Positions 1-15,530 of a DNA stretch of 64,000 bases are shown here, piece by piece; position 1 is the first letter of the stretch; every line of letters begins with the position of its first letter. Source of the stretch: Spiroplasma sp. SV19 (GTDB lineage: Bacteria; Bacillota_I; Bacilli_A; Mycoplasmatales; Mycoplasmataceae); NCBI RefSeq assembly GCF_030060925.1, contig NZ_CP045455.1, positions 1,240,001-1,304,000 of the forward strand. Direction: 5' to 3'. The notes below the pieces were generated by a model. That model did no database searches. It saw only the letters and a program-made list of their open reading frames with translations, and was not told where the DNA came from. A program made the translations under genes and the position numbers.

Positions 1-1
1 T

Positions 2-1900
2 CTATTATCTTTAATAAAAATAAGAAGAATAGGTTTAGATATAGTAATTGATTATATTAAAACCAATGAAAATAATACTTTATTGTATATAGTCCTATTT
101 TCAATTGTTATTTACTTAGTTTTTGTATTTTATAAGATATTTGCAAGTAAAAGCAAAATATATAGTAAAGAAAGTAAGAATAATACATATGGTTCAGCTA
201 AATGATTATCAGATAAAGAAATTGATGAAAAATATGCTAAAGTTGATTTATTTAATCCTAAAAATAATTATGGGATTGTTGTAAAAAGTGAAGAAAACAA
301 AAAAGGAAAAATTCAAGTAAACATCAGAAAAGATGCACATACTATTATTGTTGCTGGTACACGAGCAGGTAAAACACAAGGTTTTGTTAAACCTACTTTA
401 CAAGTTATGGCCCGTTGTAGTGTTAAACCAAGTTTATGCATAACTGATCCAAAAGGGGAATTGTATAGTAAAGATTCACAAATATTTAAAGATAATGGAT
501 ATAACGTTATTAAAATTGACTTACGTAATCCAGAACATTCATATTCATGAAATGTCTTAGCAAGTGCATTTAGTAATTGGGAAGAATATTGTAGATTGGA
601 AAAAGATGAGAAAGAATTAAATCAAAACTTCAAATCATTTTTATATAAGCAAAAAGCTATTGATTATATTAATGATATTTGTGAAACATTATTTTTTTCA
701 ACTAATTCAAAAGATGAGTTTTGAAATTCTGGGGCACGTGATATTACAAAAGGCATCTTATTAGGAATACTATATGAAATGAAAGAAAGCAATTCTCTTG
801 ATCAAAACAAATTTAATTTAGCAGAAATAATCCCTATCGTTAATAATATTGCAGCATTGAAGGACTACTTTCTTAGTTTACCTTCAACACATGTGGCTAG
901 AATCGCAGCAGGATCAATTGATGCTAGTGGTGATGCTTTAAATGACATAGCTTCTACATTAAAAAATAGATTAAATAAATTTAGTGATCCAATTATTAGG
1001 AATTTAATTAGCCAAAATGAAATTGATTTATCAAAAATAATATCTGAACCTACTGTGATATTTTTAGTATCACCTGATGATAAAAAAGATAAAGATATAT
1101 TTGCCAGTTTGTTTATTACGCAATTATATAAATTATTAATAGAACAAGCAGATAATGCTAAAGGTAAATTAACTAGACCATTTTATTTTATGTTAGATGA
1201 GTTTCCAACATTAGTTATTCCAGATATGGATAGAAAAATAACTGTTAGTGGAGGTAGAAATATTTGATTCACTTTAGTAATTCAAAGTAGAACACAATTA
1301 AATACAAATTATAAAGAAGCAGCAGAAACTATTTTAGATAATTGTCATATGCATATAATTATTCAAACTATGAATGCTAAAACTGCTGAATATTATTCAA
1401 AATTTGTAGGTAAAAAAACAATTGAATCATATTCATACTCAAATAAAAATAAACAGAGTCAAGAAAAAGGAATAGAATTAATATCATCAGATCAAGTAAT
1501 GAAATTTGAAAAAAATGAAGGGATTGTAATTTATACAAATGAGAATCCCTTGCGTACTAAATTTATACCAATGTGAGAAGTAGATGATTATCCAATTGGA
1601 GCAGTTCCAGACATTGATAAAATTCCAATGACTGATGATGAATTCGCCAATAATTATTTCTTTGATTTAAGTGATTGTGTTAAAGAAAATAAGATAGAAA
1701 GTAGCAATGAGTTAGTAGAAGAAAAACTTACAGTTAAGGACCTTCAAAAACAAAAGATTGATTTAGTTACATTATTAGAAGATTTACTTGAAGAAGAAAA
1801 ATTTCATTCATCAAGAGAAATTAAAGAGCAAATTAAAGCTGTACGTATTCAAATAGATGAAATAAGTGTACAAATTAAATCATTAGTGATAGCAAAGTAA
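2..1900 (+). CDS. traG: TraG/VirD4-like type IV coupling ATPase, 5' partial
   Basis: The reading frame is open from the window edge to TAA at 1898-1900 (632 residues visible, TGA as Trp); the start lies outside. A membrane segment is visible at residues 23-45. Walker A reads GTRAGKTQ at residues 119-126 (356-379) and Walker B is a hydrophobic strand ending in D399-E400 (about 1196). Between them is the typical TraG/VirD4 region with a GARD-like motif near 735. Coupling proteins of this family are membrane ATPases that bring the relaxase-DNA complex to a type IV secretion channel. The C-terminal tail after about residue 540 is charged and helical. A relaxase gene and a VirB4-like ATPase gene downstream support a conjugation role. 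No frameshift is seen. Confidence 0.9.
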
Positions 1901-1909
1901 TAAACGATT

Positions 1910-1930
1910 AAGGACGAAAGTCCTTTTTTT
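1910..1930 (+). terminator. Rho-independent terminator after traG
   Basis: A 6-bp perfect stem AAGGAC/GTCCTT closes a GAAA tetraloop and runs into a T tract. It starts nine bases after the traG stop codon. Confidence 0.85.
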
Positions 1931-2150
1931 GAAACTTGGTTTTCCAAGTTGTCCAAAGTATGCGCAGAGTTGTCCACACATATATTAAATACCCAATAAA
2001 TATGGGGTTTAATATATGCACAAATCTGCGCATACTTTTAAACGAGTTGGACACACGAAAAACCTATATGGAATATAGTGTTTTTTAAGATGTGTGGACA
2101 ACTCTTTTCCTGCTTTGGGTTAAAGATGTGCAAAACTATGGGTTAAAGAT
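1931..2150. repeat. Nested palindrome array, candidate oriT
   Basis: The non-coding stretch holds several inverted repeats. A 14-bp perfect pair contains TATGCGCAGA (1955-1968 with 2025-2038). A second 14-bp perfect pair is AGTTGTCCACACAT at 1968-1981 with its complement at 2090-2103. Inside lies TTAAATACCC/GGGGTTTAA (about 1985-2012), and a smaller stem CTATAT/ATATAG sits near 2064-2078. An 11-bp direct repeat GGGTTAAAGAT occurs at 2117-2127 and 2140-2150. Palindromes between a coupling-protein gene and a relaxase gene are typical of transfer origins; a replication origin or operator array is the alternative. No nic site can be assigned by eye. Confidence 0.5.
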
Positions 2151-2163
2151 TTTAATAGTTTGA

Positions 2164-2169
2164 TATAAT
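2164..2169 (+). promoter_or_regulatory. -10 box TATAAT after the palindrome array
   Basis: A perfect TATAAT lies 32 bases before the first ATG of the decayed gene at 2201. The -35 region (TTTAAT-like, around 2151) is weak. Confidence 0.5.
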
Positions 2170-2200
2170 GTTAAAGAACTAAAATATAGAAAGAAGGAAT

Positions 2201-3183
2201 ATGTATAGAACTTCAATATGTAATGAAAAATGATAGGATAGCAACAGAAAAAGATTTCTTAGTAAATTTTTATAATTATTTTAAACATAAAATTTGTAAT
2301 TTTAAAAATTGTAAAAGACAATCAATTAAATTAAAAATACCACTTTCTTTTTTTGAAACACTTAAAAATAGTAAATATTATGAAAATCGTTTTTTGAGTG
2401 AATTTGAACTAGATTATGTATTTAATGACTTATATGAATTAGTTAAAAAATCTACAGATAGATTTATTCTCATATATTTTTATTTATGTGAAGATCATGA
2501 AATTAATATATTTAAAAATTTATATTTTCAACATAAATTATCTGAAAAAATGCAATTAGATTTTCATGATAAAAGAATAAATGAACTTTTTATAAAAAAA
2601 TATATACATTATTATGTGTATTTAAATATGAAAACGATTCGCTTCTTAATTCACTTTTATCAAAATATGAGAGTGATAATTATTTTACAGATGCAGAATT
2701 AATTTGATTTCATGATATGAATTATTATCATCAGCTTTCAATTTCTTTAAGAAAAATTTTATTTTAGAGAAATATATTAAAAGTGGTAGTATTGATCAAG
2801 GGAAATATAATGGTCCAGATTTTATTTTTAAAAATACAGTTACTTCATATACAATTGGGTTTGAAATTACAGAATATGCTAAATTATTTTATGATGTTTC
2901 TGATATAAGAAACAAGGATAATTTTATAAAAACTATAGATAAAAAAATTACTAAATTAATGGATTCTGATTTTGATAAAAAAATGCAATATCTTGGAGAA
3001 ATTATTAATAAAAAAGTGATAAAAATAAGTAATTATATAAATACAGATGAAATAAAATTAGGAATAATAATGAATCACCAAATTTTACCACATGAATATT
3101 TTCATTTTGAATTTTGAATTAATTTTGTTGTAAATTCGTATAAAGGTTCGAAAAAAGCGTTTAATGAAATATACATATTATAA
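2201..3183 (+). pseudogene. Frameshifted cargo gene of unknown function
   Basis: A ribosome binding site (AAGAAGGA, 2191-2198) precedes ATG 2201, but that frame stops after 11 codons. Sensible coding continues in another frame from 2223 to about 2660, shifts again to a frame with in-frame TGA codons, shifts a third time near 2760, then runs open to TAA at 3181-3183. The summed product would be about 320 residues, rich in Lys, Asn, Phe and Tyr. One segment contains GPDFIF followed about 15 residues later by GFEIT, which vaguely recalls the PD...E-x-T/K core of restriction-like nucleases; this is weak. No family is recognised with confidence. Its place beside the transfer genes suggests lost accessory cargo. 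Confidence 0.65.
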
Positions 3184-3193
3184 GAAATAGTGT

Positions 3194-3199
3194 TATAAT
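3194..3199 (+). promoter_or_regulatory. -10 box of the relaxase operon
   Basis: TATAAT lies 137 bases before the relaxase start, so the transcript would begin with a leader of about 125 bases that contains the hairpin at 3231-3292. No good -35 box is seen. Confidence 0.5.
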
Positions 3200-3230
3200 T
3201 ATTTTGTAAAAATTAAATAGGCCATCGTGT

Positions 3231-3303
3231 ACTTCGAGTACCGGCAAATAAAGATATACTTTTTAGTATATGTTTGTGCTGGTGCTCGAAGTTTTTTATT
3301 TTT
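3231..3303 (+). terminator. Large hairpin in the relaxase leader (attenuator-like)
   Basis: The arms ACTTCGAGTACCGGCA (3231-3246) and TGCTGGTGCTCGAAGT (3277-3292) pair over 16 bases with two G-U pairs. An inner stem ATATAC/GTATAT (3254-3271) caps the structure. The right arm is followed at once by a T-rich run. It has the shape of an intrinsic terminator but lies between a promoter and the relaxase gene, so it would lower or condition transcription of the transfer operon. Confidence 0.6.
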
Positions 3304-3330
3304 ACATAGATATATTTTTTGGAGGTTGAT

Positions 3331-4677
3331 ATGCAAAACAAATTAAATTCAACACCACCAGTTGTGGGCCGACAAATTCGATATTCAAAATATGGTAGTT
3401 CTACATATAATTATTATTCAGATTCTGGATGAGATAACTATGTTACACGTGAAGAAGCTATTTGCAAAGAAATTGAAACTGATGTAGTAGAAAAATCTCA
3501 TACCCATGAGCAATTATTAAAACTAGAAAATGTAGTTCAAAATTCATGTGAAGAATATGGAACAGTATTTGATTATTATTCTAAACGTCCAGGTTCAACA
3601 GGATTGTTTGATGCAAACGGTAAAATGATGATTGACGGTATTAAAAATACCAAAAAAAGTATGCGAAAAAACAAAGTAACTTACATTGATGGAGTATGAT
3701 CATTAGATAGTAGTTTTGCATCACAATTTGAAATTACGACTGAACGTGCTGCAATGGAAGTTACCCAGAATTGTATTAATACTCTTATTAAAGGTTATGG
3801 AATGGATCCAAGTAATGTTAATTGAAAAGCTGCTTTTCATAAAAATACGGACAATCCACATGTTCATTTCTTATTATGAGAAAAAGAACCTAAAAGAATG
3901 AATTATAAAACGGGTAAATATGAATATACTGATCCAGGTAAAATGAATAAAAAGAATTTAAATAAAGCATGAGATGAATTTAAGTTTAAGGTAAATAGTT
4001 ATATTAAAAACAATTCATTAATGTATCATAATTTGAATATTCTACGTGATTCAATCGTAATGAATAAAAGTGATGATACGTTAACGTGAAAAGAAATTAA
4101 AAAGATTTATGATAATGAAACAAATAATACTTTATCAGTTAAATTTAATAAACTATTAGAACATATTCCTACAAAAGGTCGATTACAATATCAAAGTTCA
4201 AATTTTAATAGAGCAAGAAAACATATGGATAGTTTCTTAAATGAATTTATTAATTCTACAGTTATTAAAAATTCATATGATGAATACGAAAATATTTTAA
4301 CTAATCAACAACAAGAAATGGTTGAAGAATCATTAACGAATAAAGTTAGAACAGATTTAGCTTTAAATTATAAAGATAACAGAATTAATCATTTAAAAAT
4401 TGCAATCGCAAATAATATTTTAAAATTTATTAAAGATGAAGTTCCAGATTATAAAAAGGGTAAAAAATCACCATCATTTGTAAGAACAAGTGAATCTATT
4501 TTTAATGAGCGATTTAATCTTAATAAAAAGAAATCTATTAAATGAAATATTTTTGATAAATTACTAGTCACATTTAATAAGACAATAGCAAAAGAACGTC
4601 ATAGTTCATTATCATCTTTTTATGAAATGCAAAGTAAATCAATTTTTGAAAATTTAATGGTAAGAAAGGGGAAATAA
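3331..4677 (+). CDS. MobL-like (MOB-P type) conjugative relaxase
   Basis: This 448-residue protein starts at ATG 3331 behind a strong GGAGG (3321-3325). An HUH-type metal motif is visible: H170 followed by NPHVHF with H177 and H179. Upstream of it, a segment with GLFDANG, then a stretch ending in VWSLDSSF, matches the layout of Firmicutes MobL relaxases, where a LF(D/T)... segment precedes a WQ-x-V-x-SF segment. A tyrosine-rich N-terminus (Y19, Y22, Y27, Y29, Y30) may supply the nicking tyrosine. Relaxases nick oriT and lead the strand through the coupling protein. The C-terminal 250 residues are helical and charged. The gene heads a run of closely spaced transfer genes. The family assignment is from motifs only. 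Confidence 0.75.
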
Positions 4678-4678
4678 T

Positions 4679-4905
4679 ATGAAATATGTCTTAACTATAT
4701 TTATTTTTATATTTGTTATAACTATGTTTATTATCAGTTATTACATGATTAAAAATATATTAAATCATCTGGAAAGTTTAAATTAAAACTAAAAGAATTA
4801 GAAAGTAAAGAAATTCTAAAATTTAGAATTTTGTTAAGTATTGCTATTGCGTGTTTACTACTTGCAATTACATTTATTGGAATTTATATTGGAGTTTATG
4901 TTTAA
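4679..4905 (+). pseudogene. Small two-helix membrane protein, frameshifted
   Basis: ATG 4679 lies one base after the relaxase stop. The first frame codes for a strong membrane helix (residues 3-25) and stops at 4784-4786. A second frame continues without a start codon: it first gives a Lys/Glu-rich linker, then a second membrane helix ending in IGVYV before TAA 4903-4905. Joined, the product would be about 75 residues with two membrane spans, fitting a small channel-associated transfer protein. The break lies in an A/T-rich run near 4770-4785. A sequencing error is possible. Confidence 0.5.
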
Positions 4906-4919
4906 AGGAGGCGATAATT

Positions 4920-5363
4920 ATGAGTAATAAAACTAATACTGATTGATTAAATTTTCAAATTAAAACGGAATGATTAATAAAGAATAAGAAAGAATCAGAT
5001 TTAAAGGGCAATGTAAAAATTCCATTAAAAGTTCTAGGTTTATTAAATCCCTATGGGGTTATTAAACTTAGTTTAAATTGTATCCATCCAAATAAATATA
5101 ACAAAAATTATGCAACAGTTGGAATTTTAAAAACATATGAATATATGCATTGAGATAAAGAAGGCTTATTATCACCACATAAAATTTTAGGTAGTGATTT
5201 AGTTATTTATTTGAAAAAAATGTCTGATATTGTTGAACGATACAAAGCAAGAAAACAAAAGATTTACTTTCAAAATAAAGAGACATTACAAAAGTTAAAT
5301 GAAAATAATAATGAAGGAAAGGAGGAATTAGATGAAATTTTTATTAGCGATATTAATAACTAG
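4920..5363 (+). CDS. Hypothetical protein of the transfer operon
   Basis: This is a 147-residue protein with start ATG 4920 behind AAAGGAGG. It has no membrane segment or signal peptide. A central part with hydrophobic strands (residues 31-70) precedes a charged helix from about 100 to 135 that looks coiled-coil-like. Three Trp are coded by TGA. The last 32 bases overlap the start of the surface protein gene, and the ribosome binding site of that gene lies inside this one, so the two are translationally coupled. I do not recognise the family. The position between relaxase and TraE genes suggests a transfer or mating-pair role. Confidence 0.7.
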
Positions 5364-8217
5364 TATGTTACCTACAACTCCATTGATGTCGTTAACAACA
5401 ACTCAATTATCTAATATATTTTATGCATATAGTAATTCACCATTTTATCCAAACATAACATTATATTCAAATATAAATCTTAAAGTTTATAAGGGTACAA
5501 ATTCATGGTGAACAACATTAAGCGATAAAGATACAGGTACATACTATAGAAAATATACAGATTTTGTAAAAGATGAAAGTACATTTTATAAATATTATAA
5601 ATCTATTACTTTTGAATTTAGTGCCCTTTCTAGTTCATCTGGATTTGGGCGTAACCAGAGTTATTCTGGTCCAATTACATTGAGTTTAGCTTCATCAAAT
5701 AGGGATTATGATGTATTTAAATGGTCTCAAAATAGAACACAAAATCAAGCATCAAATTTAGCACAAATTTTAATTCAACCTGGAGCTTTAGCTGGTTATT
5801 TATGGTTTACATTTTATGTAGAGTGTTGAATGTATCAAGGTGGAAACTCTTCATGAACTGATACAACTAGTGAATTATCTGTAACAAAAATAACGATTAA
5901 TTCAAATCAGAATTTAGCAACAATTAAAAGCAATTTACAATCCAATTTATCAAGGCAAATAAATTTTGAGTCAGATTATTCAGGTGCTTTAGATGATAAA
6001 AGAAATATAACTGATCCAACCGGTAAAGGAAATGATTTAACGACAAAAATTAATTCAGTAATTAATAGCGTTTTGGGAAATGATTATTATGATTGAAAGC
6101 AGTATATTCAGCCATATTCTTTTAATAATTCAACAAGACAATCCACTATAGTTATCAAATTTATTAATCCAACTTCTAAACAACAAGAAGTCTGAACATT
6201 TTATACACCAATAAATATAACATTGTCATCAGGATATTGAGGAAAATCATTACGAGAAAGGTTACATATTATGCCTGGACAAATTGTTAATCCACAAGAT
6301 TCTACACAGGGAATGATTCCAGATACAGGAATTCAATTGGAACCAAGTAAAGTAACTCCAAATTATGGTGGTAACATTCAGTATCATACAACAGCACATA
6401 TTGAATTTGATGGATCAGATGATTCAACTGAATGAATGACTGTTAATGGTGAAAAAGTAGAAGTATTAAATAATAAATTTATTTATAACATGATAGATGA
6501 AAGAGTTGATAAAGGACCACAAGGAGTTAATGTATTTGATATAATCGTCTATCATGATGATGGAAAATACAAATCGCAATATCAAATTAAATATACAATA
6601 GCAAATTTAGTTCCTACATTAGAACAAAAATGATATGCATGGAATCCAACAAAAAACCCAGAACAAAATGCCTTAATTCAACCAACGATCGATGGAAAGC
6701 CAAACCCAAAATATGACAAAGAAGTTAATAAAACTACAGGAACAAAAACACAAATTATTTGAGTCAAAAAGAAGTCAGAATATCCATTTGCATTAGATCC
6801 ATTAAATCAAAATGGTGAAGTAATTAATCCAAATGTTAATCCTAAAGATTATGATTTAGGTTTTATTACTGAAGGTTCAGTTACCGGAATGGGTGTACAA
6901 CAATTATTTGATAAAACACAAGTTGACTCTGTACGAAGAGAAGGTGTAGATAATAAATTAACTAAATATAATAATCCAAATGACAAACAAAAATTAACTC
7001 AAATTGAATCTGATGCAGATAATAAATATTGATCATGAGAAGGAATTTGGCATTATGTGACTAAAACTAATGATGGATTAGCCTATGAAAAATATGTATT
7101 AATAGGGTGCTGAATATCAAAATAAATATCCTAGATTTTTAGATGTCTTAAATGATAATACAATTGCAGTAGACTTTTGAACAACAGTTCATGGAATTCA
7201 TTTAAAGAATTATTTGGCAACTTATAAAAGTTTAAATTCATTAGATATTAGTAAATTAACATTTGAACAAGTATCAAGTTATTGGAAAGAATATACGTCC
7301 GACGTTATTGCCCAACGAATTCCACCTGATCCAGACCCAGTTAAATATATTGATATTTCTGGAACTCTTCCAGCAATAAAAATGAATAAGGATGATATCA
7401 TTCAAATTAAAGATGTTATTAATATTGAAGTTGATAAATATATTAAATTAAAAAATAATAAGGCAATTATCGGTGTAGATTATTCTATCTATACACCAGA
7501 TGGAAAAGATATTAATGTTGATGTTAGTGGATTAAGCACATTATTAAATAATCAAACAGCACCACAATATTTAAAAATTAATATTAAAGCATTAGCAACA
7601 TCGACCTTATTAATTGGTAATGCTAATGTTCAAGTCCGAAATTCAAGTAGTTATAATCCAGATTTAGTTTCTGATTTAAGTAAAATTAAGTTTAAAGACT
7701 ATGATTTTAATTTTAAAGAATTTACGATTGATGAACTACGCCAATGAATTATTAAAAATGTAACAAATTATTTAGATACATATAGTTTTAATAATTTAGT
7801 TATTAATACGGATTATGGAATAACGGCAACTGAAATTCCAGAAGCAGATCCAGTTACACATGATAATACACCAGGTGATTTATCAGATAAAGTATTAACT
7901 GAATTTTTAGATACGACAACTGGTAAAACTAGTTTGACAATTATTCTTTATGCAAATGATGCATCAGATTTAGCAATCGGAAGTTCATCATTTAATTTAG
8001 TTAATAATCCAGTTTCACCACCAGTTCCTCCCGATCCACCAGAACCGCCAAAACCAAAACCAGATGCTGAACCGGGTGAAAGTTATTTTCAAAAGAATAA
8101 GGCATGAATTGCAGCAGTAATTGCAATAACAAGTGTAGTATCAGGGGGGGAGTAGGTATGTTCTTTTGATATAAAAAACGCAAAGGTATTGGTGGCAAAA
8201 ACCGTAAAAGAAAATAG
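5332..8217 (+). pseudogene. Large anchored surface protein (adhesin-like), two frameshifts
   Basis: ATG 5332 follows GGAGG. An N-terminal signal peptide (MKFLLAILITSMLPTTPLMS) leads into about 850 residues of extracellular-type sequence rich in Ser, Thr, Asn and Tyr. A proline-rich stalk (PPVPPDPPEPPKPKP, near 8020-8065), one membrane helix (8101-8160) and a basic tail (KKRKGIGGKNRKRK) end the protein at TAG 8215-8217. Two frame breaks interrupt it: near GGG 7105-7107, where the first frame stops at 7123-7125, and at the G7 run 8144-8150, where the current frame stops at 8153-8155 inside the membrane helix. One base less at the first and one base more at the second give a product of about 960 residues. 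The layout resembles the adhesion-related proteins carried by S. citri and S. kunkelii plasmids. Loss, phase switching or sequencing error are all possible. Confidence 0.7.
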
Positions 8218-8231
8218 AAGGATGTGAAGTT

Positions 8232-11114
8232 ATGAATGAAAATATAATTCCCAAAAATATTAAAAAGACTAGATTAGAATTTTGACGTGGAATTGGATTA
8301 ATTGAATTATTAATTATTCTAGGATATATTGGAATTTTAGCAGTTATCATTTTTTGTATTCCAACACCATGAACGTTTAAATTAGCATTAGCTATTATTG
8401 GATTAGTTTTTTTAATTCCATTGTTAATTCAAGTTTATCCAGGAGTTAAGGGCTGGTATGCAATAGCATTGATGTTTAAATTCTTAGCTAAGAAAAAAAC
8501 TTTTAAAGAATATACAGATAATGATACAACTTTATTATTTCCATACGATAAACTAATTGATGATAATGTTTTAAAAACTCGTTCAATTAATGGTAAAAGG
8601 AGATATATTTGTGCATTTGATGTAACTGGTTATAATATTTCATTATTAGATCAAAGAATTCAAGAATTAAAAATAATGGAATTTAGAGATGCATTAAAAT
8701 CATTAGAATTTGAAGTAAGTTTTCGTAAAATTGAAGTACCAATGGATTTTAGTGATTCTTTAAATGAAATAAAAACTAATTTAAATAATTGTGATACTTT
8801 ATTTAAAACAAAAGCTATTTCAGAAAAAGGTTATAATGCTAGAAAGTTCCAATTACTATCAACAAATAAAATTTTTAAGAATAGTACAATTGATAGTGAA
8901 AATAAAATTAAAACAAGAAAAATGTTTGTGATGTATTTATATTTTAATAAATTAGATGAAATAAATAGTATTCAATATATTATTAATCAATTTGAAAATG
9001 CTAATGTTAAATTAAAACAATTAAAAGGTTATGAATTAATTAATAGTATTAAGCGATTATTTAATCCATTTTGTGAATTATATAGCGAACAAACAGTAAA
9101 TGAAAATGAAAATATGATAGATTCATTGGTAACATTTAAAAAAGTGAGTTTTCATAAAAATTATTTCAAAGCTGATGGAATGTATTATTCAATAAATGGT
9201 ATTTACTCGTATCCTAATTACCCAACTAATGGATGGGGTGCTATGTTGGCAAATTTAGAACAAACTGTGATTTGAAATATTAAACATGAAAAAACACATA
9301 AAATTAAGAAACAAATTCAAACAGCATTAAATAATTTACAGACAAAACAAGTAATGTCTCGGGGGTTTATTAATAAAACAGATATTAAATATGATGAAGA
9401 AGTATTAACAACATTAATTGAACAAGTATCATCTGGGAATGATGTTGTAAAAACTGTTAATATTCTATTTTTGAATTATGCTGATAATTTAAAAGATTTA
9501 CAGAAAATAGAGAAACAATTAAAAAAACAATTATATGATATGGATATTGTATTAGACCCATTAGCATATCGTCAATTGGAATATTATGGTTCTATTCTGC
9601 CAAAACCTGATGATGCTTTAACTGGTGTGTTAGGACATCCAATGCCATGTTATACATTAGCTAATTCATTTCCATTTGTTAATAGTGGTGTGTTAGATTC
9701 TACTGGATTTTATTTAGGTGATAATTTATTAGGTGATACTATTTTGTTTGATACATTTTATTTAGATGAACATCGAACAAATTATAATGGTGTTATTTGA
9801 GGTAAGTCAGGTTATGGGAAATCATGAACAACTTATAAAGAAGTAATTCATCATTTAACAAAAAATCGTAGAGTAATTATTATTGATCCAGAAGGTGAAT
9901 ATAGAAATATTTGTAGTTTCTTTGATGGGCAATATCTAAATGCATCAAATGGGGCAATAATTAGAATTAATCCTTTTCAAATTTTTGATAATAGTTTAGT
10001 AGCAAAAGATGAAAACATTTTAGATGCAACTGAAATGGATGAAGTTTATAGTGAAGAACCACTATCAACTCATTTACGATTTTTAACACAATTTTTTAGT
10101 ACATTATATAAAGATTTACAAGAGCGAGAACTACGTGTTTTAAGTGCAGAATGCCAAAAAGTTTATCATAGTAAAGGTATAACAAACATAACAAATATAA
10201 GTAAATTGGAACCTGCTGATTTTCCTACTTTTAATGATTTATATGATGTGATATGTGCATCATATAATGAAAAGAAAACTCCAATATTAGCTGATTTAAA
10301 GGATTTATTAGAGTTTGATTTTATTGGTGATGGACAATATGCAAAATTATGGAATGGACATACAACATTAGAATTAAATAATATTTTTACAGTAATTGAT
10401 TTTAAAGATTTATTGGATCAAGATGTTCCTAATGTTACAGCAGCACAATTATATTTAATTCTTAATTATGTTAAAAATGAAATTAAATTAAATCGCCAAA
10501 AAGGTGATTCTGATATTGTAATTATTTTAGATGAAGCACACCGTTGTATTGATCCAGATAATCCGGTTGGATTAAATTTTATTTATCAAATGGCCAAACG
10601 TGGACGAAAATATCGGGCAAGATTATTATTAACTACTCAAAATTTAAAAGATTTTAGTGGTGGAGATAATCAATTAATTCATAAAAAAACCACAGCTATT
10701 TTAAATAATATTCAAACTATGACTATTATGCATCTAGCACCAGATGATTTAGAAGAATTATGTATTTTATTTAGACCATTTGGAGGTATTTCTGCTGCAG
10801 AACGTGAAAATATTGCGCGTGCAAAACGTGGTGATATGTTATTTATTTTATCATCATTTGACCGTCATTTTTTACATCGAAATGTAACATCAGAAGAGTT
10901 AGTAGCATTTAAAAATGAAAATTATATTATGCCAGAGTATGAAACAGAATCAGTTAAAGAAAAATCTATTAAGAATAAGAAAAAACAAAAAGATATTAAA
11001 GATAAAAAAGCCACTAACGTATTATCTGGAAATGAACATATTCCATTTAATGATGAATGACAAATTTCTATTGATAAAGATAAACAACCAACGAGTTTGA
11101 AAGGAAATAAATAG
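8232..11114 (+). CDS. traE: TraE/VirB4-like conjugation ATPase
   Basis: This is a 960-residue protein with start ATG 8232, 14 bases after the tail of the surface protein gene. Two membrane helices lie at residues 19-45 and 49-70. Walker A is GKSGYGKS at residues 524-531 (9801-9824) and Walker B ends in D767-E768 within a LDEAHR motif. The C-terminal Q-rich sensor segment (LLTTQNLKDF) follows. VirB4/TraE ATPases power assembly of type IV secretion channels, and Spiroplasma plasmids carry homologues under the name TraE. The N-terminal membrane helices resemble a VirB3-VirB4 or PrgI-like fusion; that is inference. The tail after residue 910 is lysine-rich. The gene appears intact. Confidence 0.88.
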
Positions 11115-11116
11115 GT

Positions 11117-11594
11117 ATGGCAAATAATGTTGAAATTAGAATTAGATTATACACAAAAGAACAAATTGAGAAATATAATCAGTTTATAAGTAGTTAAAAC
11201 TTCTGCTGGCACAAAAAATAAGGTTTTAGCAGATTTATTAATATCATCAATTGAGCAAAATATGTTAGAAAACTATGTGACACCAATTGCAGAAATTATG
11301 TCTAATGTTTTAAATAACTTATTAAATTATAAAATTGGAGCATTGATAAAATATTTAGATAAAACAAATGCTGAAGAAACTAAACGCCAAATAGTAATGG
11401 ATGAAGGTATCACATTTGTTATTAATCAATTAAGTTTATTAACTAATGATTATGATAGTCATCAGAATCCGTCTGTAATATTACGTAAAAAACCTGAATG
11501 ATTAACTAAGTTTGCAGAAGAAATAGCAGAGAAATTTAATCATTTCATTAATATTAAAAATGAACATAATATTTATAAAAAAGGCAATGAATAA
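11117..11594 (+). pseudogene. Small ribbon-helix-helix-like protein, frameshifted
   Basis: ATG 11117 lies two bases after the traE stop. The first frame codes for 26 residues starting with a beta-like strand (VEIRIRL) and stops near 11195. A second frame picks up at once (VVKTSAGTKNKVLADLLISS) and runs to TAA 11592-11594, giving a joined product of about 158 residues. A basic N-terminal strand followed by two helices recalls ribbon-helix-helix accessory proteins of relaxosomes (MobC-like). The rest is helical. The assignment is tentative. A one-base indel near 11195 accounts for the break. Confidence 0.5.
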
Positions 11595-11606
11595 TTGCTT
11601 TTTTTT
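11581..11606 (+). terminator. Terminator closing the transfer operon
   Basis: A GCAAT/ATTGC stem with a five-base loop is followed by eight T. It overlaps the stop codon of the preceding gene. Confidence 0.7.
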
Positions 11607-11739
11607 GTTGTATAGGTTTATTATTAAAATTATTATAAAGAGCAAGTAATAAATTTTCAAAAATCTAAATTATTTAAAAATAGAATACAAAAAATGATTT
11701 AGTTATTTAATTTATTTTTTATAATGTAGAGGAGAAGAT

Positions 11740-13203
11740 ATGGAAGAATCATTTTTTAATTCTGTTGATCTGAATGTATTAATTTAATTAATAGTTCAGT
11801 TAAAGTTAGTTCAGACAAAATAATAGAAATCAGAAAATTTTTAAAACAAATATATAATATGCAACAAGATATAAATTACGATGATTTTGATTTTTAGAAA
11901 ATATTATGTGGTTATATGCCTTGGTCTCAGGTGTATATATAAAAATTTTTAAAGAAGAAAGTTTTGAATATACAAAAATTAGTGAAAGCAAATGTTTTGA
12001 ATATATACAATTTACATTTTCAAGAGTTTTTATTTTTTTTTTAAATCTAAATTTCCGAGTTATTCTCAAATTCGATGTATAACACAACTGGTTTTTTCAT
12101 ATATGCATATTTTAAAGAAGAAGAATCAATTTTTAGAAATATCATCAATAGCGTTATTTTTAGTAAACAGTTATAGAATTACAAGAGATTCTAATGGAAA
12201 ATATATGTATGAAAACGATTCTATACAATCATGAATAAATGCACTATTATTGATTTCAGTATATTCAAAATTTAAGTTTAATAAGAATTTAAATATTCTA
12301 TTTGATAAAGAAAAAAATCAAGATTTAGTGAAATATGTATCATTTTTAATAATGGAAAATTTAGGATGGTTAGAACATATGAAAAATATTAAAGTAAGAG
12401 ATTTAGAAAGAATTGATACAGCTTTTGTAACAGAGTGTTTATGCGAAATAACTAAATATTTTGAGATAGACTACGAGACTTTATTTAATTTAAACCTAAA
12501 TATAAAGAAGGAATATTCAAGTGATAAACTCTTTGAATTATTTCAATGATATATTTTAGATGATGAATTATATTTATCAAATTATTATATAAATACCTAT
12601 GATGAAAAGTATATTTGAAATTTTGATTTTAAATTTGATGATACTAAAATCAATTTTAAAATAATAGATGAATTAAAGGCTATTTATCAAAATTCAATAT
12701 GATTAAAGGTTCAAACATTACATGATAATAATATTTATAATTTAATTCCAATAGATTATAAAAATATTTATATTCTTAAAAATACATCAAGTTTGATTTA
12801 TATAAATTTTTATCAAATTATAGATAAAATTATTGAATTTTTAGCAATTGAAGCAAAAATAAAAAATCTGGTTTAAAATATAATTTAAATAGTGTTAGTA
12901 AAAATTTAAATGGTAATTTTAATAGCACATTGATGTTATTGAATAATTTAGAAAATAAAATTTTTTTAATGGTTCAATTAAGTGAATTAATCCAGATTTA
13001 GATTTTAAGGGTAATTTATTTGGCATTTTTAAGGATTTAAGAAATACTTTTACACATTCAAAAGATAGTATTTTTTTAAAGATAATGAGTATGGAAATTT
13101 TATAGCAACACAGCATCTCTCAAATTTAGTAATATATTTGATTAGAACAATACTAATTTATTTTGCATATGAATATAGCATATATAAAGATGGCCTGATT
13201 TAG
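11740..13203 (+). pseudogene. Decayed HEPN-domain gene (ApeA-like defence protein)
   Basis: A ribosome binding site (AGAGGAGAAG) precedes ATG 11740, but the frame stops after 15 codons. Coding resumes in other frames with breaks near 11785, 11895, 12030, 12870, 12965 and 13075, mostly at A or T runs. Joined, about 480 residues result. Near the C-terminus lies DLRNTFTHSKDSIF, an R-x4-H motif in the context typical of HEPN ribonuclease domains, followed by a hydrophobic helix. A long N-terminal domain plus a C-terminal HEPN is the plan of ApeA-type anti-phage proteins. Function is inferred from this motif only. The gene lies between the transfer module and a transposase gene and is clearly inactive as read. 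Confidence 0.6.
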
Positions 13204-13214
13204 GCATTTTATGT

Positions 13215-13220
13215 TATAAT
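13215..13220 (+). promoter_or_regulatory. -10 box upstream of the transposase gene
   Basis: TATAAT sits 22 bases before ATG 13242. The -35 region is not convincing. Confidence 0.45.
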
Positions 13221-13241
13221 ATATATAAAGAAAATGTATTA

Positions 13242-14717
13242 ATGTATCAATCAGTATGGTTAAAATGTAGTATTTATAAAGATAGGGTAATAGTAAATAT
13301 GGTTCATGATTTTAATCCTTATGATTTTTTTAAGCACTTTAATCATGAGGCACAACAAACGTACAGAGAAAAATTAGTAAAAACATTAGAACAAATTGAT
13401 GATGAATTATTTCAGTATATTAGAAAAGCTAATCCATTATATAAGCCAAAAGGATATAAAAAGAGATATTTAATATCTATTTTTGGTCAAATTAAATTAA
13501 AATTACATCGATATAAATATTGAGATAATGAATTTTATAATTCAAAAAAAGATACTTATGGAAAGTGAAGATATAAAATATTATTTTATGATCATATTAA
13601 ATTAAAGAAATATCAGAGATTAACACATGATTTAAGATTAACTATTTTGAATATGATAGGCGATGGATTACGACATAAAGATATTTTATTAGCTTTTCCA
13701 AAAGCACATTTAACAACTCAGACTATAAGTAATGTCATTAAACGTGAAAATATTTCAGAGTTTATTAATTATAATTCTGTTAATAAAGTTGATGTATTAG
13801 AAACTGGGAATAGAATTTATATTGCTTTAGATGATACTTTTTTAAAGGCAATTAATGAAAAGAAAAAATGTAATAAATACCGGATACGTTCATTGACTAC
13901 TTATACGGGTCATATAAAATCTGATAGTAGCAAAAAGTTTTTAGAGAACAAAAAAGTATTTTACAAAATGGTGAAATTAGGTCAAGGTATTAATACATCA
14001 GAATTTATGAATGAAATATTAGAACATATTAATAGATTTTATATTATAAATAATGATACTAAATTAATCGTTGGTGGTGATGGCGCTAATTGAATTTATG
14101 AAATCTCTAATTTATTAAATGCAGATTATGTATTAGATAAATTCCATGCATTAAGATTTACAAAAAGTTTGCTTTCAAGTAGAACATTAGCGTATCATAA
14201 ACTACATTATAAAATAATTCGTTATTTATATTCAACTGGTCAGGTAGATAAATTATTAGATTTACTTGTTAGTTATAAGAAAAATGACTTAATAACAAAT
14301 AAAAATAAGATTCCAAAAGTGATAAATTATCTCAAACGAAATAAGGCAGGGATTGAAATATATAAAGAAAAATGATGTTTGGGAGTATGCGCAGAAGGAC
14401 AAATTTCACATAATATTAAACAAGTTTTAGGATATGGGGCAAAAATAGTGAATGTAAAAGTATTACAAAATATGTTAGATTTACGATTTGCCAAAATTAA
14501 TGGATTTGATCCTATAACAGAATTAAAGAATTATGAAATGACAATAGTATCTGAACAAGACCATTTTAATAAGACATCAAGGTGAATTTTACCTGAGTAT
14601 AGTATTAATCCATATGAAGTTGTAGGTAAACCAAATTATGGTAGTATTCCAATAGTTCAAAGTGGTTCTAAAGCCGGATTAACAGGTAAGGCTATTACAG
14701 AGTTAGCATACGCTTAG
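13242..14717 (+). CDS. ISLre2-family (UPF0236) transposase
   Basis: This 491-residue protein matches the UPF0236/ISLre2 family pattern: an N-terminal helical part with a Zn-like turn, a central segment with IYIALDDTFLKA giving the first acidic residues, then VGGDGANWI followed by ADYVLDKFHALRF, which are family landmarks (a GDGAxWI and a D-x-FH motif). The C-terminal part includes CAEGQISH, another family landmark. The start may be ATG 13242 or the in-frame ATG 13299, since neither has a strong ribosome binding site. It is intact with TGA as Trp. Such genes are often multi-copy in Spiroplasma. No clear terminal inverted repeats were found by eye, so the element ends are undefined. Confidence 0.8.
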
Positions 14718-14833
14718 TTTTTATACATAAACAAGCAATTAAAATTGTTATTTTTGTATTGCAAAATTAATCATTTTGTTGTTTAATATTTATAGAATAC
14801 ATTATTCTTAGATTTTATAGACGGTAAATTTAA

Positions 14834-14839
14834 TATAAT
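14834..14839 (+). promoter_or_regulatory. Possible -10 box of the rimP-infB operon
   Basis: TATAAT lies about 210 bases before rimP, giving a long leader that contains the 28-base palindrome at 14972-14999. The rest of the 14718-15047 gap is AT-rich, with no other gene-like frame. Confidence 0.4.
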
Positions 14840-14971
14840 AAAGGTATATTCTATCCCTATGTATAGGTATAGTACTATACTGGTACCCAATTCTTTATCC
14901 TAACCTTTTATTATAAAAATTTGCATTTTTGTTAATAAAGTATTACAATAACTATGTAATTAAAAAAGGAG

Positions 14972-14999
14972 AAGAAAGAGCACAATTGTGCTCTTTCTT
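14972..14999. repeat. Perfect 28-base palindrome before rimP
   Basis: The arms (left arm AAGAAAGAGCACAA) are perfectly complementary with no loop, centred at 14985/14986. A Shine-Dalgarno-like GGAGAAG overlaps the left edge. The right side continues TTTAATGG and is not a strong T tract. It could be a terminator of upstream transcripts, a leader hairpin of the rimP-nusA operon, or a dyad operator. Confidence 0.6.
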
Positions 15000-15047: not shown

Positions 15048-15530
15048 ATGGAAGAATTTATAAAACAGCAAGCACAGTTAAAAACAGCTTTGGAAAGTTA
15101 TTTAGCAAAGCAGAACTTAACATTATTTGCAGTTAATTATTTACAAGATTTTGGAACTAATGTAGTGCAAATTTTAATTGAAGATCAAACAACGGTGCTT
15201 GATTTAGACCGATTAACAATTATTAGTGAAGAAATTAATCATCTGGTTGATGACCTTGATTTGTTTCTGGCAGAATACTTGTTAGAAGTCTCAACACCAG
15301 GTGCTGAGAGACCTTTACGGAATTGAAATGAAGTACAACAACAAGTTAATCATTATGTTTATTTTGAATTTATTGAAAAAGTTAATAATTTAACTGCAGT
15401 TAGTGGTGAATTAACAGCAGTTGATGAAAAACAAACAGTAACGATTACTTATTTTGTGAAAGGTGCTCGCAAAACCTTACAAACAACTTATCAAAACATT
15501 AAATTTGCGCGTTGTGCAGTTAAATTTTAA
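15048..15530 (+). CDS. rimP: Ribosome maturation factor RimP
   Basis: This 160-residue protein starts at ATG 15048, 10 bases after AAGGATGG. It contains the RimP landmark DLDLFLAEYLLEVSTPGAER (about residues 68-88), where E-V-S-(T/S)-P-G is diagnostic. RimP assists late 30S subunit assembly. It is the first gene of the rimP-nusA-rnpM-ylxQ-infB operon found across Firmicutes, with nusA 18 bases downstream. The length is normal. Confidence 0.92.

Follow-up and report, generated by a model that had tools for sequence, protein, structure and literature searches.

A decayed integrative conjugative element of the mycoplasma type next to the rimP operon of Spiroplasma sp. SV19

Introduction

Is the block of conjugation genes at this locus of the Spiroplasma sp. 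SV19 chromosome an integrated plasmid or an integrative conjugative element (ICE), and is it still complete? A preliminary description of the sequence had offered both readings and had likened the genes to the plasmid gene sets of S. citri and S. kunkelii. We followed up this question for a window of 64,000 nucleotides, the whole stretch of DNA analysed (G000:C1:1240001-1304000 of a single 1,456,516-bp contig), reading its open reading frames (ORFs) with genetic code 4.

Results

Element A and its gene content

With this code the genes for TraG, the relaxase, the surface protein and VirB4 were found where they had first been placed, all on the forward strand, and their chromosomal surroundings were confirmed as well: a maltose/glucosidase operon forms the left flank, and rimP (15048..15530, +; orthologues in 14/14 genomes of the genus), nusA, ylxR and infB form the right flank from position 15048 onwards. 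The interval originally delimited, 2-11594, holds these conjugation genes but is too short, since it omits a transposase gene at 13242-14717, which the preliminary description did not contain, the right end at about 14905 and some 4.9 kb that precede the window edge. The whole element, here called element A, extends from G000:C1:1235064 to approximately 1254905 (window position ~14905), that is ~19.8 kb. Its part in the window is 1..14905 (+), with the left junction defined by homology and the right end placed where homology to transposase tails yields to chromosomal homology.

Four genes have open frames, three of which had been described as intact from the start. The traG/virD4 gene for a coupling ATPase of the CD1115 family (2..1900, +, cut by the window edge; PF02534 178.5 bits) scored 270.7 bits with NF045973 (VirD4 CD1115; cut-off 250), and its full ORF of 664 amino acids starts at G000:1239906, 95 nucleotides upstream of the window. 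A MOBL-type relaxase of 452 amino acids is encoded at 3319..4677 (+; PF18555 82.8 bits, cut-off 28.5) and VirB4 (TraE; Mbov_0397 family), with 960 amino acids, at 8232..11114 (+; NF045975 751.6 bits, cut-off 590). The fourth is the transposase gene (13242..14717, +), which encodes a Mutator-like DDE enzyme of the Mbov_0401 family with 491 amino acids (NF046004 266.3 bits, cut-off 162) and lies ~190 nucleotides before the right end. Membership of this transposase in the TnGBS/ISLre2 family was considered and rejected (83.5 bits, below the cut-off of 200).

The remaining genes are small or broken, and the frameshifts reported for several small genes were indeed present: in a hypothetical gene at 2223..3183 (+; ORFs 2223-2702 and 2704-3183), which a three-frame reading distributes over two or more frames, in the small gene after virB4 (11117..11594, +) and in a hypothetical gene at 11741..12876 (+), the latter two according to the ORF list and frame reading. 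Upstream of the window, PRTase and DprA genes match ShosTA proteins; ShosT is weak (28.4 bits), and the DprA-like gene is split, with ShosA scoring 46.7 and 102.3 bits on its two broken halves. A small conserved protein (4851..5363, +) has tblastn matches at three loci (L170, L171, L013), and a relative sits immediately before 0399 in a further Spiroplasma genome, G008.

The surface protein gene (5332..8217, +) is of the Mbov_0399 family and frame-broken. Its ORFs 5332-7125 and 7214-8155 match consecutive parts of this one family (NF045892, 334.6 and 41.8 bits, cut-off 170), and an intact homologue of 955 amino acids in a second element of the same chromosome, element B, shares 64% identity with the first part and 53% with the second. 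The N-terminus is signal-like and the S. platyhelix homologue has a C-terminal helix; an AlphaFold model of the protein was poor (pLDDT 51.6), and its fold comparison yielded no meaningful match. A surface gene is present as first proposed, though a broken one. The label adhesin is not supported: the intact protein of element B shows no detectable homology to the adhesion-related protein of pSci3 (S. citri ScARP; E 0.48).

Four families specific to mycoplasma-type integrative conjugative elements (MICE) are above their NCBIfam cut-offs in element A, namely Mbov_0396, 0397, 0399 and 0401, and so is VirD4 CD1115. In a VirB4 tree, element A falls into a clade (100/99) with the ICEs of S. platyhelix, of the genomes G003 and G006 and of other Spiroplasma, together with plasmids of S. 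citri BLH-MB. Judged by its genes, element A is a MICE with a MOBL relaxase. Between the two readings first offered, the ICE is supported by these families and by two relatives bounded by inverted and 8-bp direct repeats (see below), and the plasmid is not.

The MOBL relaxase

The relaxase matched MobL above the Pfam cut-off (E 3e-23) and stayed under the NCBIfam cut-offs for MobP2 and MobP3. Members of the MOBL family are described as having a three-histidine HUH motif and an N-terminal catalytic tyrosine (PMC5313138). In element A the histidines H174/H181/H183 are invariant in six relatives (alignment A2) and align with the solved relaxase 9qq7, which a profile built from six relatives matched with E 6e-14. 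The candidate catalytic tyrosine is Y41, which does not vary in alignment A5 and has tyrosines opposite it in three further relatives. The mobL gene lies directly before 0399 in element B and in a third element, C, and MobL matches were found in 15/60 genomes of the taxonomic family. For mycoplasma ICEs the only evidence for a relaxase that we found is a weak structural hint, the similarity of CDS3 to MobM (PMC6813540). The MOBL relaxase encoded beside the 0399 gene is a candidate nicking enzyme for mollicute ICEs.

Ends and decay of element A

The right terminal region (14718..14905, +) ends at 14903-14905. This placement follows from two homologous tails, one after a transposase of G005 that is 62% identical and one standing alone in G008. 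These two tails are homologous to each other (222 versus a null maximum of 46) and end at CTTTATYCTA, the same motif as in element A; homology to the chromosomal backbone of G009 and G010 begins at 14894 and 14907, respectively. Since the G008 sequence, which also lies upstream of rimP, matches an A-type transposase tail with this score, its interpretation as ancestral backbone was rejected. The empty site cannot be read from relatives because the sequence preceding rimP varies between the genomes compared.

On the left side the element is not complete. A 1.95-kb segment, L004:13112-15063, is a 91% copy of another chromosomal region (G000:412374-414326) and stops within a 933-amino-acid ORF of its source locus. 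At the base directly following it (junction G000:1235063/1235064) virB6 of element A sets in mid-gene, at a point that corresponds to roughly codon 139 in S. platyhelix, so that about the first 138 codons are gone; accordingly, the Mbov_0396 transmembrane (VirB6-like) protein scores 108.5 bits (cut-off 70) over profile positions 180-305 only. As virB6 is joined mid-gene to the duplicated segment, the left end of the ICE, the pilin gene and the start of virB6 are missing. A lipoprotein gene at L004:13332 was considered as the ICE lipoprotein and rejected, as it is part of the duplicated segment. The search for inverted repeats combined with 8-bp direct repeats around element A, up to 35 kb leftward, gave a best pair (L004:12932/window 14772) that was no better than shuffled sequence, as explained by truncation of the left end. 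With this end gone, element A most likely cannot excise itself.

Could element A nevertheless be an active, self-transmissible ICE, with frame breaks that stem from sequencing errors or can be switched and with a left end lying unrecognised elsewhere? TraG, MobL, VirB4 and the transposase are uninterrupted, and 0399 changes frame near 7107 and, just before the membrane anchor, in a run of seven Gs (8144-8150), which is a candidate for such switching; some of the frame breaks could be sequencing errors. We consider an active element highly improbable, however, in view of the truncated virB6 fused to a chromosomal duplicate, the additional breaks in the DprA gene and the small genes and a leftward search without an end pair beating shuffles. 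Element A is very probably what is left of a Spiroplasma MICE that has lost its left end and is decaying. It is slightly surprising that a dead element should still have four open core genes; it may have been inactivated recently, or its genes may be used in trans.

Two co-resident relatives

The same chromosome contains two further elements. Element B (58655-89364, 30.7 kb) is bounded by the perfect 8-bp direct repeat TTTTACAA and element C (850881-896347, 45.5 kb) by the perfect 8-bp direct repeat TTTTTTAA. To determine their ends, the transposase tails of the two loci were compared, which showed an end shared by both, and a scan for the inverse of this end gave the left ends. The resulting imperfect inverted repeats, GATAGGATGAAATAATTGGAAC / GATGGTAAGAAATAATTGGAAC, are identical at 19/22 positions; each end pair was the best of its own search, the next candidate reaching 14/22. 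In both elements 0399 is intact. The virB4 gene of B consists of an N-terminal piece only, and the transposase of C is broken.

The open core genes of element A could complement these defects, and in M. agalactiae ICEs of the same cell are known to complement each other in trans (PMC6030558). Element A might thus be a conjugation remnant retained for another job, for instance helping B and C in trans or serving as a secretion system. But elements A and C share only ~27-32% identity in TraG and VirB4, so that mixed machines may not work, and the ICEA transposase of M. agalactiae has been described as cis-acting (PMC6030558). We would give such a retained function hardly any weight compared with simple decay.

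Comparison with Spiroplasma plasmids

The likeness to plasmid gene sets holds in kind, since pSci3 of S. citri carries Mbov_0395, 0396, 0397 and a TraG-like module adjoining a surface protein; in lineage it does not, pSci3 lying away from the clade of element A in the VirB4 tree. In searches against plasmid DNA there was no match to element A in near mode; distant mode gave only an alignment with a single S. citri BLH-MB plasmid, which covered 25% of the query and corresponded to the 0399 region (65%), plus a short stretch of TraG. The BLH-MB VirB4 is ~38% identical to that of A. One of these plasmids, pSciBLHMB-2, is annotated as a plasmid, yet it holds a MICE gene set with a transposase; like pSci3, it shares MICE-type type IV secretion (T4SS) genes with element A. 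That a pSci/pSKU146-type plasmid of S. citri or S. kunkelii integrated here by recombination or an insertion sequence is, despite the shared module type, very improbable, given a VirB4 only ~26% identical to that of pSci over 61%, no rep or par gene recognised among the element ORFs scanned (pSci3 carries ParA), a ScARP adhesin unrelated to 0399 and an ICE transposase at the right end.

Insertion next to promoters

The right end of element A (known to about 2 nucleotides) is followed after 15 nucleotides by the -35 box of the rimP promoter (14921..14949, +; TTGCAT, 17 nucleotides, TACAAT). Element B ends 25 nucleotides before the infC promoter (TTGACT-17-TATAAT) and element C 26 nucleotides before the rpsL promoter (TTGACT and a -10-like box). 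Compared with random intergenic sites, the promoter score of the three ends has P = 3.5e-5. For eight ends (A, B, C and those in G001, G013, G005, G008 and G009a), a set that was picked after looking and is not united as one clade by the tree, the score was reached in 0/200,000 random draws; for seven ends from other lineages P was 0.09. Some ends are placed with a precision of only a few bases, and part of the pattern could stem from selection against insertions that hit genes.

Discussion

Our analysis replaces the story of an integrated plasmid with a more precise one, in which a single Spiroplasma chromosome holds three elements of the MICE type. Two of them have exact ends, and this makes their excision testable by simple PCR. 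Element A itself is a new, decayed member of a known family, and Spiroplasma ICEs with relaxase genes have already been noted, in S. atrichopogonis (PMC4607517). In the literature consulted we found no account of the promoter-proximal placement, of a MOBL assignment or of ends as defined here for B and C.

From the protein families we infer how an intact element of this type would move. The DDE transposase (Mbov_0401) would cut out and circularise the element, and the MOBL relaxase would nick the circular form at oriT. TraG would then couple the nicked DNA to a reduced T4SS consisting of VirB4, the VirB6-like Mbov_0396, the pilin-like Mbov_0395 and the surface protein Mbov_0399, and the element would pass to the recipient as single-stranded DNA and re-insert in the chromosome. 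Circularisation and transfer are predictions, and so are the functions given to each protein.

Among the closest known systems are the chromosomal ICE of S. platyhelix PALS-1 (NZ_CP051215) and its relatives JKS002669 and A83_bin3_2. They contain the same gene families as element A apart from MobL, which was not found in this group, they share its VirB4 clade (100/99), and their 0399 is 53% identical over the first part. They differ in that TraG follows VirB4 and in right ends that are not beside a promoter. The chromosomal ICE of S. atrichopogonis, with trsE, traG and mob, combines relaxase and T4SS genes as element A does, a likeness taken from the published description alone (PMC4607517).

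The mycoplasma ICEs (ICEA of M. agalactiae, ICEHo of M. hominis and the M. hyopneumoniae ICE) resemble the Spiroplasma elements in VirB4 (Mbov_0397), the transmembrane protein 0396, the large surface protein 0399 and the DDE transposase 0401 at the right end. A further likeness, seen in elements B and C, lies in the imperfect inverted repeats and 8-bp direct repeats, and terminal inverted repeats with 8-bp direct repeats have been reported for mycoplasma ICEs (PMC6813540, PMC7648426). In contrast to these, the Spiroplasma elements have a recognisable MOBL relaxase, an altered gene order and right ends before promoters, and copy A is truncated.

The placement before promoters is also a possible likeness to TnGBS of Streptococcus, which inserts right end first, 15-17 nucleotides upstream of the -35 box (PMC3942029), and encodes a Mutator-like DDE transposase as well; element A lies at 15 nucleotides. 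The differences are an Mbov_0401-family transposase that is not of the ISLre2/TnGBS type, other conjugation genes and a distance of 25-26 nucleotides from the -35 box in B and C. The placement of A, B and C is TnGBS-like, which we regard as a lead and not as a result; it is the most interesting lead because MICE insertion has been described as random (PMC6030558). Tentatively, and with slightly less than even confidence, we propose that some Spiroplasma MICEs with an Mbov_0401-type transposase combine a recognisable MOBL relaxase with a preference for sigma-A promoters of housekeeping operons, inserting with the right end leading and keeping a nearly constant distance in front of the promoter. 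If this is real, random insertion would hold for only part of the MICE family, and another part would place itself as TnGBS does.

Element A and its insertion site

On its left side, the truncated element A directly abuts a segment of 1.95 kb (L004:13112-15063, in the SV19 locus upstream of the window) that is a duplicate of G000:412374-414326 on the same chromosome, with 91% identity, and that contains a lipoprotein gene and the start of a 933-aa ORF. Further along, a PRTase gene and a split DprA-like gene (L004:17355-19022, corresponding to G000:1237355-1239022) match the ShosTA toxin-antitoxin/defence pair. This ShosTA-like PRTase/DprA pair appears to be decayed cargo of element A.

The frame-broken 0399 surface protein gene contains seven consecutive G at window positions 8144-8150, immediately 5´ of the part encoding the membrane anchor. 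Only three other G runs of seven or more are found in the window. Either a sequencing error or a tract that can be switched may account for the run.

A strong hairpin of 12 pairs (window 14972-14999) lies between rimP and its promoter and has, on the minus strand, a T-rich tail behind it. Conservation of the hairpin sequence extends to other Spiroplasma genomes. In G008, a diverged Spiroplasma, the right end of an A-type ICE stands alone upstream of rimP (L068:1160-1360), at the site that element A also occupies. Either insertion took place there more than once, or the insertion is old and shared.

Related elements

Element C, a MICE-type ICE of 45.5 kb with proper ends (G000:C1:850881-896347; loci L167, L012, L008 and L010), is located upstream of rpsL; its transposase is broken and its main conjugation genes are open frames. 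Element B, also of the MICE type, is located upstream of infC and was delimited by inverted repeats and a perfect 8-bp direct repeat (G000:C1:58655-89364; L011:8655 to L007:9364). Of its virB4, an N-terminal piece remains and the rest is gone. It also encodes a 518-aa protein (L006:10956-12512) with repeated '..GLLYVGTxNSNVWRVA..' blades, which by eye look like the repeats of S. citri adhesion-related proteins.

The S. citri BLH-MB record pSciBLHMB-2 (CP047439.1, our locus L013), annotated as a plasmid, contains a whole MICE gene set together with its transposase, and is perhaps a circular ICE or a plasmid with an ICE inside.
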